Assembly (NCBI RefSeq): GCF_004765815.2
Contig: NZ_ML974128.1
Location: forward strand, 248,001 to 312,000
Origin: Halorussus salinus
GTDB taxonomy: Archaea; Halobacteriota; Halobacteria; Halobacteriales; Haladaptataceae
Length of the DNA stretch: 64,000 nucleotides
Direction of reading: 5' to 3'
Shown here piece by piece: positions 19,920 to 25,113 of this stretch. The position numbers and the translations under genes are program-made. How positions within the stretch are numbered: position 1 is the stretch's first letter; each line of letters opens with the position of its first letter. The notes beneath the pieces were generated by a model, which was not told where the DNA came from, did no database searches, and worked only from the letters and a program-made list of their open reading frames with translations.

Positions 19920-20633
19920 ATGACTGGAGATACCGACCCCCGCGGGGACCTCGCGGAACGCATCGCGGGCGAGATAACCCTGAGCGACGACCCCGGCGCG
20001 ACGCTCCGCAAGTGGCGCACCGACTTCGGAGTCTCCCAGACCGATTTGGCCGACCACCTCGACGTGTCGTCGTCGGTCGTCAGCGACTACGAGAGCGGCC
20101 GCCGCGAGAGTCCGGGCATCGGCGTGGTCTCCCGACTCGTCAACGCCCTGCTGGACATCGACGAGCGCCGCGGGGGCGACCGCATCCGCCAGTACGCCCG
20201 CGTCGTCTCCGCGGGGTTCGAGAGCGACATCGTGAACGACCTCCGGGAGTATCCGACGCAGGTCTCACTCGACCGATTCTACGACGCGGTTGGCGCGAGG
20301 GAACTCGCAGAGGGCGACCAGCGCCACGTCACCGGCCACACCGTCATCGACAGCATCGAGGCTATCACGCGCCTCTCCAGCGAGGAGTTCTATCGACTCT
20401 ACGGCCAGAGTACCAGCCGCGCGCTGATGTTCACCAACGTCACCCGCGGGGAGTCGCCGCTGGTCGCCATGCGCGTCGTGAATCCGACGCCGAACGCGGT
20501 GGTCCTCCACGGCCTCGACCGCGGGGACCTGTGGGACCACGCGCCGAAGATGGCCCGCCTCGACGGTTTCTCGCTCTCGGTCACGAACGAGCCGATAGAC
20601 GACGTGTTGCAGGCGCTCCGAGAGTTCCCCTGA
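19920..20633 (+). CDS. XRE-family helix-turn-helix regulator
   Basis: 237 residues. The helix-turn-helix lies at about 35-70: LRKWRTDFGVSQTDLADHLDVSSSVVSDYESGRRESPG. The C-terminal 150 residues form a haloarchaeal/archaeal conserved domain with TSRALMFTNVTRGESPLVAMRVVNPTP. It is 125 bp upstream of the proteasome operon on the same strand. The 18-bp palindrome in between is an obvious candidate binding site, but that link is inference. Confidence 0.85.
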   Translation: MTGDTDPRGDLAERIAGEITLSDDPGATLRKWRTDFGVSQTDLADHLDVSSSVVSDYESGRRESPGIGVVSRLVNALLDIDERRGGDRIRQYARVVSAGFESDIVNDLREYPTQVSLDRFYDAVGARELAEGDQRHVTGHTVIDSIEAITRLSSEEFYRLYGQSTSRALMFTNVTRGESPLVAMRVVNPTPNAVVLHGLDRGDLWDHAPKMARLDGFSLSVTNEPIDDVLQALREFP

Positions 20634-20704: not shown

Positions 20705-20722
20705 GCTAAAATATATTTTAGC
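20705..20722. promoter_or_regulatory. Perfect 18-bp palindrome overlapping the proteasome-operon TATA box
   Basis: GCTAAAATATATTTTAGC is fully self-complementary. It covers the only TATA-like sequence upstream of psmB, whose ATG is 37 nt further on. A dimeric regulator bound here would block TBP. It is therefore both a promoter and a probable operator. Confidence 0.65.
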
Positions 20723-20758
20723 TAACACTTTTCGGTGGCTGGCCCGTACCTGTTTTCG

Positions 20759-21481
20759 ATGCCAGACGCCAGACCTCCCTCGGAATCGACCCCGAACAGC
20801 GACCCGGAACTCACGAAGACCGGCACGACGACGGTCGCGGTCACGGCCGACGACGCGGTGGTCGTGATGGCCGACAGGCGTGCGAGCGCGGGCGGCCGGT
20901 TCGTCACGAGCAAGGATACCCAGAAAGTCGAGCGAGTCCACCCGACCGCGGCAGTCGCGCTCTCGGGCGCGGTCGGCAGTCTCCAAGACTACACCCGCCG
21001 ACTCCGCTCGCGGGCCGACCAGTACGAGATTCGCCGTGGCGACCCGCCGAGCGTCGCCGCGTTCGCCACCTTCGCGGGGAACCTCCTCCGAAACGGTCCC
21101 TACCGCATGGTCCGGCCGATTCTGGGCGGCGTGGACGGCGACGGCCCGCAGGTCTACGACCTCGACGGCGGCGGCGCGGTGATGGACGCGCCCTACGCCG
21201 CGAAGGGGAGCGGCACCCAGTTCGCGCTCGGCGTCCTCGAACGCGAGTTCCGGCCCGGCCTCTCGGTCGAAGCCGCGACCGACGCCGCGGCCCGCGCCGT
21301 CGAGAGCGCAATCGAGCGCGACACCGCCAGCGGGAACGGCGTCACCGTCGCCGAAATCACCGCCGAGGAGGTCGCCATCGACGCGTACGACGACCCGGCC
21401 GAGTTGTACGCCGACCCGGCCACCGCGGCCGGAGGCGACGCGGCCGACCGCGACGCCGACGACGGCGAGGAGGTGGCCTGA
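20759..21481 (+). CDS. psmB: 20S proteasome beta subunit
   Basis: 240 residues from the ATG at 20759 (a GTG at 20735 lies in the leader). Autocatalytic processing between Gly22 and Thr23 (TG/TTTVAV) would free the Thr nucleophile. The catalytic set is complete: Thr1, Asp17 (MADRRAS), Lys33-equivalent (KDTQKVERV, shifted by one inserted Gly), GSGTQ and ERDTASGNG. The propeptide is short. It forms the proteolytic inner rings of the 20S core with the alpha subunit encoded directly downstream (one-base overlap). The sequence departs from typical haloarchaeal PsmB, so it may be a second, accessory copy. Confidence 0.92.
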   Translation: MPDARPPSESTPNSDPELTKTGTTTVAVTADDAVVVMADRRASAGGRFVTSKDTQKVERVHPTAAVALSGAVGSLQDYTRRLRSRADQYEIRRGDPPSVAAFATFAGNLLRNGPYRMVRPILGGVDGDGPQVYDLDGGGAVMDAPYAAKGSGTQFALGVLEREFRPGLSVEAATDAAARAVESAIERDTASGNGVTVAEITAEEVAIDAYDDPAELYADPATAAGGDAADRDADDGEEVA

Positions 21482-22242
21482 TGCAGGGCGACCAGCAGGC
21501 CTACGACCGGGGCACCAGCATCTTCTCGCCCGACGGACGACTGTATCAGGTCGAGTACGCCCGCGAGGCGGTCGAGCGCGGGAGCGCGAGCGTCGGGGTC
21601 ACGACCGCCGAGAGCGTCGTCCTCGCGGCCCGCCGCCGGGTGCGCTCGCCGCTGATGGACCCCGAGAGCGTCGAGAAGTTGCATCAGGTGGACGACCTCC
21701 TCGGGGTCGCCTCGGCGGGTAACGCGGCCGACGCCCGACAGTTGGTGGAGTTCGCGCGTCAGACCGCCCAGCGCGACCGCCTGACCTACGACGAGCCGAT
21801 GGGCGTCGAACCGCTCGCGAAGGCGGTCGCCGACCACGTGCAGGAGTACACGCAGTCGGGCGGCGCGCGCCCGTTCGGGACCGGCCTGCTGGTCGGCGGC
21901 GTGACCGAAGACGCCTCGGGAGACTACCGGCCCGCGCTGTACGAGACCGACCCCTCGGGGACGCCCTCGGCGTGGGACGCCGCGGCGGTCGGACGCGACA
22001 GCGCCGAGATTCGGAAGTTCCTCGAAGCCGAGTATCGTCCGGACGCGGACCTCGATTCGGGCGTGGACCTCTCGCTGGAAGCCCTCGCCGCGCCCGACGA
22101 CGAGTCGTTCGCCCCCGCGGAGGTGGCCGTGGCGACGGTGACGAAAGAGGCGGGCTACCGCCACCTCTCGGCCGACGAGCGCCGGAGCGCGCTCGACCGT
22201 CTCGGACTGCTGGACGAGAGCGGGAATCGGCAGGCGTCCTGA
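21481..22242 (+). CDS. psmA: 20S proteasome alpha subunit
   Basis: 253 residues; the ATG shares one base with the psmB stop. The alpha signature is present: YDRGTSIFSPDGRLYQVEYAREAVERG, then RVRSPLMDPESVEKLHQVDD and ASAGNAADARQL. Alpha rings gate the core and dock regulatory ATPases (PAN/Cdc48). The C-terminus is shorter and more acidic than usual and lacks an obvious long tail. A beta-alpha operon is unusual for haloarchaea, where I recall psm genes as unlinked. Confidence 0.92.
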   Translation: MQGDQQAYDRGTSIFSPDGRLYQVEYAREAVERGSASVGVTTAESVVLAARRRVRSPLMDPESVEKLHQVDDLLGVASAGNAADARQLVEFARQTAQRDRLTYDEPMGVEPLAKAVADHVQEYTQSGGARPFGTGLLVGGVTEDASGDYRPALYETDPSGTPSAWDAAAVGRDSAEIRKFLEAEYRPDADLDSGVDLSLEALAAPDDESFAPAEVAVATVTKEAGYRHLSADERRSALDRLGLLDESGNRQAS

Positions 22243-22364: not shown

Positions 22365-23459
22365 CTACGACGCCTGCCGAACCGACTCCGCGCCGCGCCG
22401 CCGCGTCCCGGCCACCGAGCAGTCCCCGGCGACGAACACGTCCAGCAGTTCGTCGTCCAGTTCGACGCCGACCCTGACACACCACGGGTCGTCGGAGACG
22501 ACCGTCTCGGTCCACTCGTCGCCGACGTTCCAGATGGGCCTATCCCGGACGTTCAGCCCGTGGTCGTGGAAGAACGCGACGACCGCGGGGTGTTCGAGGA
22601 CCGCGAGCGTGACGGGCGCGTGGAGTCGGCACCCGCACTGCGCGCAGTCGAGGAGGACCTGCGCGCGCTCGGCGTCGCTGTCGGGCAGGCGGTCGGTCAG
22701 GGAGTCGGGCGGGGACGCGAGCGCGGCGTCCATCGTCGCCGCGCACTCGGGACAGACCCCGTCGGACATCACAGAGAGGCGGTGGCGGTGGTGGCGGTCG
22801 AACGCCGAAAGCAGGCGCTCGGGGTCGCGGTCCCGGCGCGCGCTCGGTGGGAACGGCAAGGTTAGGACGCCGCGCCCGCAGTCGTCGCAGGCCACGGTGA
22901 CGGAGTTGGCCTCGCAGACCGCCGCGAGGTCGCCCGACTCACAGAGCGGGCAGGCGTCGCCGGTCGGCACGGGACCGAACGACACCCGGTCGGTGTAGGT
23001 TCCGGCGGCGATGGCTCGGGCGACCTGCCGCCCGGCGTAGGTCAGCGCGTAGCGGTCGCCCTCGTCGCCGGTTCGCCGGAGGAACAGGTCGGTCAACTGC
23101 CGAAGGTGGTAGGCGAACCCGGCGGTCGTGTCGGCGGGACTTCGCTCGAAGAGTTCCGAGAAAGTCATCGTCCGGCGCTCGGGCGAGTCCGACGTGCCCT
23201 CGCCCGCGGCGTCGCTATCGTCCTCGCCGCCCGCGAGCGCCCGGAGGACCGCCATCCGGACCTCGTTGCCCAGCGCCTCGAAGGCGTCGCTGGCCGCGCT
23301 CGACTCGACTTCCGGCGCGGGTGCGGCGGCTTCGGTGTCCGCCGTGACGGTCCCCGCGTCGGACTCGCGGGTCTCCTCGACCGCCGCACGCTCCGGTAAC
23401 TCGGTCGGGGTCGCCTCCGCACCCGACTCGTTCGCGCCTTCCGTGCCAGCGTCACTCAT
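22365..23459 (-). CDS. ArsR-like winged-helix protein with zinc ribbons
   Basis: 364 residues. Acidic disordered N-terminus (1-55), ArsR-type winged helix (about 58-160: SDAFEALGNEVRMAVLRAL ... TTAGFAYHLRQLTDLFLRRTGD), then three Cys-pair knuckles: CPLCESGDLAAVC with CDDCG, CPEC, and CAQCGC. The C-terminal beta-rich part may bind a ligand. This matches a common haloarchaeal regulator layout (DUF7351-like). Probably a transcription regulator; the target is unknown. Confidence 0.82.
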   Translation of the reverse strand: MSDAGTEGANESGAEATPTELPERAAVEETRESDAGTVTADTEAAAPAPEVESSAASDAFEALGNEVRMAVLRALAGGEDDSDAAGEGTSDSPERRTMTFSELFERSPADTTAGFAYHLRQLTDLFLRRTGDEGDRYALTYAGRQVARAIAAGTYTDRVSFGPVPTGDACPLCESGDLAAVCEANSVTVACDDCGRGVLTLPFPPSARRDRDPERLLSAFDRHHRHRLSVMSDGVCPECAATMDAALASPPDSLTDRLPDSDAERAQVLLDCAQCGCRLHAPVTLAVLEHPAVVAFFHDHGLNVRDRPIWNVGDEWTETVVSDDPWCVRVGVELDDELLDVFVAGDCSVAGTRRRGAESVRQAS

Positions 23460-23772: not shown

Positions 23773-25113
23773 CTAGTTGTCCACATAATCGTAGAGCCGC
23801 TCGTTCATCCGGCCCGTCCCGGTGAAGACGAACTCGCCGTCCGGCACCGTGAAGTCCTCCATCTCGATGGTCTTGTCGTGGTTGTGCCGGTCGTGGACGT
23901 TCTCGTACTCCTCGAAGCTGAGGTCGTAGCGGGCGTCGTTCTGGGCGTCGATGTTCAGCGCCTCGATTTCGTCTTCCCAGCCGTCGGCGACCGTCTCCGC
24001 GTGGATTTCCGCCTGCGCGCCCGAGCCGTAGGACCCCACGAGGAGTTTCTGGCCAGCGAGGTCGATGCCCTCCTCGGCGGCGGTCTTGAGCGCGCTGGCA
24101 CGGGCGATGTGGACCGACCCGGTGTACCAGTTGCCGACCTCTCGGGAGATGGAGAGGGTCGGCTCGACGGTGGCGGCGTACCAGTCGCGGTACGCCTCGG
24201 TCGAACTCAGGTCGTCCATGTGGTCCCGGATGGCCTCCTCGTAGCTCTCGCGGTCGTCGAAGTCCTCCTCGCGGGGCTGGAAGCCGATTTCCTCCGCGAG
24301 TTCCTCCTCGATGGGCGTGTCCCGAATCATGTGTCGGTAGCCCAGCAGGCCCGCCTTCCGGACCATGCCGGGGAACGGCGTGTGGAACGGGATGTACGCG
24401 AAGTCGTCGGGGTGGGTGTCGCCCGAGACGCTCTCGAAGTCCTCCAGCGCCTCGCGCATCCGAGCGAGATAGACCTGCATCGAGCGCTTACCGTCCACGC
24501 TCGGGAACTGCTGGTTGGGCTTGAGGAAGTCGGTCTCGTCGGCGCTCCCGTAGCCCTGCTCGGTCGAGAGTTCCACGAGGCTCGGCTCCTCGTCGATGAG
24601 CATGGCGACCGCGCCCGCGCCCTGCGTGGCCTCACCGGGGTCGCCCCGCGCGTAGAGGGCGGTGTCGGTCGCCACGACGAGCGCGGCGCGGCCGCGGTTA
24701 CGACCCGCTTTGATCCAGTTGTACGCGTCGTCCAGACTCTGAGTGCCGGAGATGCAGGCGAACTTGCGCTCGCCCTTGTTGGCGTGGTGGAAGTCGCCGT
24801 CGTAGACCTGTTCGAGACAGCCCGCGATGTACGTCGAGACGGGCTTGGAGTTGTCGAACGAACTCTCGGTGGCCACGTCGATGCGACCGATGTCGTCGGG
24901 CGAGAGACCCTTGCGGTCCATCAGGCGCTTGGCCGCGTTCGCGCCCATCGTCACGATGTCCTCGTGAGCGTCCGGGAACGAACTGGCGTGCAGGCCGAGT
25001 CCCTTCGTGTACTTTTCGGGCTCCTCGCCCTTCTCGGGCGCGAACGTCTCCGCGAGGTCCAGTTTGAGCTTCCCCGTCCAGATTTCGATGGCGTCGATAC
25101 CGACAGCTGTCAT
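23773..25113 (-). CDS. mvaS: Hydroxymethylglutaryl-CoA synthase
   Basis: 446 residues, full length. Catalytic Cys120 (KFACISGTQSL), Glu83 (ATESSFDNS) and His244 (IPFHTPFPGM) are all present. It condenses acetyl-CoA with acetoacetyl-CoA to HMG-CoA, the second step of the mevalonate pathway that feeds archaeal isoprenoid lipids, carotenoids and quinones. It is monocistronic here. The C-terminus has the typical archaeal ending TVPDGEFVFTGTGRMNERLYDYV. Confidence 0.95.
   Translation of the reverse strand: MTAVGIDAIEIWTGKLKLDLAETFAPEKGEEPEKYTKGLGLHASSFPDAHEDIVTMGANAAKRLMDRKGLSPDDIGRIDVATESSFDNSKPVSTYIAGCLEQVYDGDFHHANKGERKFACISGTQSLDDAYNWIKAGRNRGRAALVVATDTALYARGDPGEATQGAGAVAMLIDEEPSLVELSTEQGYGSADETDFLKPNQQFPSVDGKRSMQVYLARMREALEDFESVSGDTHPDDFAYIPFHTPFPGMVRKAGLLGYRHMIRDTPIEEELAEEIGFQPREEDFDDRESYEEAIRDHMDDLSSTEAYRDWYAATVEPTLSISREVGNWYTGSVHIARASALKTAAEEGIDLAGQKLLVGSYGSGAQAEIHAETVADGWEDEIEALNIDAQNDARYDLSFEEYENVHDRHNHDKTIEMEDFTVPDGEFVFTGTGRMNERLYDYVDN

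Follow-up and report, generated by a model that had tools for sequence, protein, structure and literature searches.

The 64,000-nucleotide stretch of the Halorussus salinus genome analyzed here (hereafter the window) contains two adjacent proteasome genes on the plus strand, a psmB-like gene at 20759–21481 and a psmA-like gene at 21481–22242, located behind an 18 bp palindrome at 20705–20722 (GCTAAAATATATTTTAGC). An earlier note on this DNA had described a beta-alpha pair under a palindromic promoter; both genes were confirmed, as was the palindrome, which is a perfect 9 + 9 inverted repeat. The first gene, psmB2, encodes a second proteasome beta subunit of 240 aa from an ATG start, with a propeptide encoded at 20759–20824 and the Thr1 codon at 20825–20827. 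The second, psmA2, encodes a second alpha subunit of 253 aa, and the two reading frames share one base (TGATG). The palindrome, regarded below as a putative operator, consists of half-sites GCTAAAA and TTTTAGC around four central nucleotides (N4), and is followed at 20723–20732 on the plus strand by a BRE/TATA-like element, TAACACTTTT, 27–36 nt upstream of the psmB2 ATG. Upstream of the palindrome lies the XRE-type helix-turn-helix gene reported previously (19920–20633, plus strand), a family-specific neighbor that was judged to be outside the module. Downstream of the pair, a convergent gene (22365–23459, minus strand) encodes a 364 aa protein combining a predicted winged-helix domain (DUF7347) with a zinc-ribbon domain (DUF7351), here treated as the candidate regulator, and beyond it an HMG-CoA synthase-like gene (23773–25113, minus strand) forms the right-hand flank of the module.

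The psmB2 and psmA2 products hit PF00227 with 147.5 and 168.9 bits, respectively (cut-off 22.4), and the psmA2 product also carries the N-terminal signature PF10584 (49.6 bits, cut-off 27.7). Tested against the NCBI canonical equivalog models (TIGR03633/TIGR03634), both fell just under the cut-offs, with 279.6 against 287.35 for alpha and 189.9 against 224 for beta. The beta residues listed previously as retained, Thr1, Asp17 and Lys33, are present along with Asp166 and Ser169, and all five are invariant in 34 of 34 second betas, as is the GSG motif in the beta alignment (A1). The YDR gate motif and Lys66, the HbYX-pocket residue for ATPase docking, are invariant in 31 of 31 second alphas. The dN/dS ratios of 0.05–0.19 for beta2 and 0.03–0.27 for alpha2 indicate that both genes are under purifying selection. 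Judging by their sequences, the second beta and alpha are working enzymes. The propeptide of beta2 is short, as had been observed (22 aa, whereas that of the canonical H. salinus beta has 48 aa). The extra Gly before Lys33 (GGRF), which had been put forward as a distinguishing mark, also occurs in canonical psmB of Haladaptatus, Natrinema, Natrialba, Halobacterium and Marine Group IV, and the psmB products without it are those of the canonical Halorussus type and Haloferacaceae type; as the residue is ordinary in haloarchaea, it was discarded as a sign of specialization.

Five genes with PF00227 were found in the genome of H. salinus: a canonical alpha (contig C2), a canonical beta (C3), the pair (C2) and a short beta-like gene (C5). 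The canonical psmA and psmB are intact, not linked to each other and located away from the pair. Therefore, the window does not hold the sole proteasome locus of the genome, the case that the earlier note had named as refuting it, and the two genes represent a second 20S pair, distinct as the note had supposed. Its subunits share only 46% (beta) and 57% (alpha) identity with the canonical subunits of the same cell. The short beta-like gene (L005, C5:176905–177429, minus strand), with a 229 aa product and weak relatives across Halorussus, reads MATIVAI at the Thr1 position and so seems to be without Thr1; it may be a proteasome homolog that is inactive or works in a different way. Two PAN-like ATPase genes are present in the H. 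salinus genome. An extra PAN dedicated to the module was not found and was dismissed as a component, since the complete genomes of this family all have two PANs, whether or not they carry the module.

Within the family Haladaptataceae, the pair was found in 19 of 28 genomes, namely 10 of 18 in Halorussus (counting H. salinus itself) and 9 of 10 in the sister genera. Many of the best 80 loci in a scan of named genomes were beta-then-alpha pairs, from Halorussus, Haladaptatus, Halomicrococcus, Halostella, Halocatena, Halovenus, Halosimplex, Halorarius, Halogranum, Actinarchaeum and others, and another set of genera including Natrinema, Natronomonas and Halorhabdus had alpha-then-beta pairs. The latter are linked genes of the canonical type (L039, L048, L061, L066 and others, in Natronomonas, Halosimplex, Haloterrigena/Natrinema and Halorhabdus), so that the statement in the earlier note that haloarchaeal psm genes are normally unlinked is not supported. 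In the beta tree, the 34 betas of beta-then-alpha pairs formed a single clade (support 100/99) against 62 canonical or alpha-then-beta betas; this clade contains all sampled beta-then-alpha pairs and covers at least six haloarchaeal families. The alpha tree was less firm: grouping of the pair alphas needed two changes in the first tree, a branch with support 95.7 set them apart when three long-branched rows were removed, and support fell to 79 when Haloferacaceae and further alphas were added. By their phylogeny, beta2 and alpha2 are a separate, old pair with common descent.

The palindrome was compared across genomes. It is the sole match in the 4.75 Mb H. salinus genome even when 3 mismatches are allowed. 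In an exact search, its 16 bp core was found in 38 of 292 haloarchaeal genomes, always as a single copy, and the reversed pattern used as a control never occurred, so the palindrome is not a chance sequence. At all 31 inspected loci the second beta lies directly downstream of the palindrome, with alpha adjoining beta at 30 of them. Nearly every pair locus in Halorussus, Haladaptatus and Halomicrococcus has the palindrome before the second beta. In other genera the central N4 varies while the half-sites are still recognizable. A conserved TAACA[T/C][A/T]T[A/T][T/A] element is fixed at +9 to +18 from the palindrome center, and the psmB2 ATG is placed 43–45 nt from the center at nearly all loci (51–52 in one genus). 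This spacing fits a leaderless promoter, and we infer a TATA box near −27 with the palindrome touching the BRE from upstream. The palindrome itself is unlikely to be the TATA box, given that several genera differ in its four central bases while the half-sites and a separate TATA-like element are fixed.

A promoter profile built from 26 such promoters and searched in 391 genomes gave matches in 87 genomes and 37 of 86 genera, at about one site each. When 40 of these loci were read in detail, 31 had a second beta downstream, next to an alpha in 21 cases and with no alpha alongside in 10; one further locus had an alpha only, and eight had neither gene. With about one profile site per genome and few, weak extra matches, a wider regulon under the operator was rejected; the promoter element is dedicated to the pair and conserved. 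Three weak profile matches (E 0.004–0.006) in one genus (L310, L311 and L312 in G346, G225 and G235) precede a superoxide dismutase-like gene, which may be chance or a hint of an oxidative-stress link.

Gene clustering around 56 pairs from many families identified only one constant neighbor, the convergent downstream gene. It accompanies the pair at 55 of the 56 loci, 52 by clustering and three (L204, L205 and L231) by translated search; at the remaining locus, in Halorussus litoreus (L037, matching G018), the candidate regulator lies 13 kb from the pair. In the family, the gene was detected in all 19 pair-bearing genomes (at least 335 bits) and in none of the nine pair-less ones, one of which is only 62% complete (best paralog at most 170 bits), although linked genes are partly co-inherited and this co-occurrence is not independent evidence. 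The H. salinus protein scored 77.1 bits for DUF7347 (cut-off 27.6) and 174 bits for DUF7351 (cut-off 31.2). The latter, a putative sensor domain (22413–22958, minus strand), contains two conserved CxxC...CxxC zinc ribbons, whose cysteines (Cys170/173/191/194 and Cys236/239/272/275) are invariant in a 41-member alignment. The predicted DNA-binding domain comprises residues 57–150 (23010–23291, minus strand). In a predicted monomer model with a mean pLDDT of 79 overall, a PDB look-up on the winged-helix domain returned HxlR/ArsR/MarR-type winged helices at Z of about 9–10, including 3df8 (Z 10.2, 6.6 Å over 98 residues) and BigR 3pqk (Z 9.5, 3.2 Å over 87). The recognition helix, residues 112–122 (23094–23126, minus strand, core AGFAYHLRQL), has a core AGF[AS]YHL that is nearly invariant in the module members, whereas paralogs have AQFNYHL and similar sequences, and the module members were split from the paralogs with support 93. 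DUF7347-DUF7351 proteins form a multi-copy family, with 1 to 12 matches per genome in H. salinus and its family, and no published function of DUF7351 was found in the open-access literature. In Halobacteriaceae (L207, L208, L209 and L071) the convergent regulator has only 118–143 aa, without DUF7351 but with the recognition-helix core kept, indicating that the sensor is not universal.

Comparison of loci with and without the pair indicated that the module was gained and lost as a unit. Four Halorussus genomes that lack it have the XRE and HMG-CoA synthase-like genes in convergent orientation, separated by 0.8–2.8 kb of DNA without the palindrome. Genome G276 has the operator and TATA-like element (GCTAAAAGCTGTTTTAGCTATCATATATCC, L330 around 3001) with neither a proteasome pair nor the regulator, and is a relic site. 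The regulator is missing in G082, which has beta2, and lies nowhere within 3 kb of the pair at L325. In Haloferacaceae, beta2 stands under the operator at ten loci where no alpha adjoins it, the second beta and second alpha are often 8–16 kb apart, and three genomes keep a second alpha without beta2. The unlinked second alpha is under the same operator in three genomes of one Haloferacaceae genus (G126, G108 and G082; L344, L346 and L350 around 1302–1334), and this holds even for G126, which has neither beta2 nor the module regulator. The Haloferacaceae second alphas formed their own clade (support 99) at the junction of the pair alphas and the canonical alphas, in a tree whose rows include no H. 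volcanii sequence by name. Carriage of the module by plasmids was rejected, as beta2 had no close relative in PLSDB plasmids (7 weak matches, < 60% identity), and so was carriage by viruses, as the 23 bp element was absent from viral contigs.

The occurrence of the same gene set across many related genera suggests a dedicated, switchable second proteasome. We consider it fairly probable, at roughly 0.6, that the locus is a regulated alternative-proteasome module in which a regulator acts on the palindrome to control a separate, active second core. The DUF7347-DUF7351 protein would bind GCTAAAA-N4-TTTTAGC as a dimer, with which the symmetry of the operator is compatible, directly upstream of the BRE/TATA of the leaderless promoter, and would switch psmB2-psmA2 on, more likely than off. 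The signal would be sensed by its zinc-ribbon domain; zinc ribbons suggest a redox or metal signal, and stationary-phase stress is a further guess. Beta2 and alpha2 would then assemble into an additional 20S core with catalytic activity, which would coexist with the housekeeping particle and share the PAN/Cdc48 ATPases of the cell with it.

The regulator proposed in the earlier note was the neighboring XRE protein, which would control the operon through the palindrome. Its gene does lie adjacent, upstream and on the same strand in nearly all pair-bearing Haladaptataceae, but it adjoins the pair only in this family. All 17 complete Halorussus genomes have it, although seven of them have neither pair nor palindrome, and it is not adjacent in Halostella, Halovenus, Halogranum, Natrialbaceae and others, which have the identical palindrome. 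As some genomes have the gene but not the site and others have the site with no XRE gene beside it, control by XRE is very improbable, and the convergent DUF7347-DUF7351 protein, which lies outside the coordinates of the earlier note, is probably the better candidate. How this protein would act is a separate matter. It could be a repressor that sits on the palindrome and blocks TFB/TBP until a signal frees it, which would agree with the palindrome abutting the BRE/TATA region and with the resemblance of the wing domain to HxlR/ArsR/MarR-type proteins, many of which are repressors. Archaeal activators usually sit just upstream of TATA, however, and the operator is placed there at constant spacing rather than over the TATA element and the start. 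Because of this position, activation is somewhat more likely than repression, which we regard as a possible but doubtful mode of action.

Other readings concern the particle. The second subunits might be swapped into the canonical 20S under some conditions to give mixed particles, like those of H. volcanii, where two alphas and a single beta form alpha1-beta, alpha2-beta and alpha1-alpha2-beta particles (PMC6267482). The Haloferacaceae loci with beta2 lacking a neighboring alpha and the genomes with a second alpha lacking beta2 indicate that the subunits can be used apart. In most genomes, however, both subunits were inherited together, as one clade each and from overlapping or adjacent genes, which favors a partnership, and the low identity between second and canonical subunits within one cell also speaks against mixing; we therefore consider mixed particles unlikely. 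Least credible is the reading that the pair is a copy of the housekeeping genes that is now decaying and has no role of its own. The second subunits do evolve faster than canonical alpha, their presence is patchy, and at least one relic site exists (G276), but the catalytic and interface motifs are all intact, the promoter is conserved across families, and dN/dS far below 1 refutes decay in its strong form. The regulated second core may further be viewed as a 'switch proteasome' of ancient origin and separate inheritance, in which a whole additional 20S core is under a one-target zinc-ribbon-sensor regulator and a nearly invariant operator; the Haloferax-group second alphas would be what remains of the same module after loss of beta2. 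We propose this extension tentatively.

The pair shares with canonical archaeal psmA/psmB the PF00227 fold, Thr1 with its partners Asp17, Lys33, Asp166 and Ser169, the PF10584 signature, YDR and Lys66, and differs from them in its separate clade, 46–57% identity, short propeptide, and own palindromic promoter and regulator. Haloferax volcanii (psmA, psmC, psmB) is likewise a haloarchaeon with more than one 20S subtype, but has one beta, whereas the module adds a second beta, in an operon and with a dedicated operator. In H. volcanii, alpha2 rises in stationary phase (PMC2910475), and cells with alpha2-beta only tolerate hypochlorite better (PMC6267482); by analogy, this points in the same direction as the zinc ribbons with regard to the signal. 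The published H. volcanii alpha2 peptide GTSLFSPDGR matches the second alphas near beta2 in Haloferacaceae. The candidate regulator shares its predicted fold with ArsR/HxlR/MarR-type regulators, and is set apart from the DUF7347-DUF7351 paralogs by its own recognition-helix core. In eukaryotes, core subunits of the proteasome are inducibly replaced to form the immunoproteasome. The likeness to this swap is one of function only, as the module has no homology to the regulatory circuit of the immunoproteasome, would replace both alpha and beta, and is proposed to be under the control of a single operator by a bacterial-type winged-helix protein.

No paper on a second haloarchaeal 20S operon was found in the open-access literature. 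Extra archaeal proteasome subunits were already known, and why they exist and how a core is chosen is a standing question; a 2026 review states that what archaea gain from alternative core particles is mostly unknown (PMC13022661). The compact, recurring system described here makes core choice testable: it combines a single operator with a single candidate regulator and a single target operon, and within one genus some genomes naturally have it and others do not. It also provides a first candidate function for the DUF7347-DUF7351 family, which has many copies in haloarchaeal genomes. If Haloferax alpha2 belongs to the module, there would be a regulatory explanation for the phenotypes published for stationary phase and hypochlorite, and if the switch proteasome proves true, haloarchaea would have a prokaryotic system that parallels the inducible immunoproteasome in its logic.
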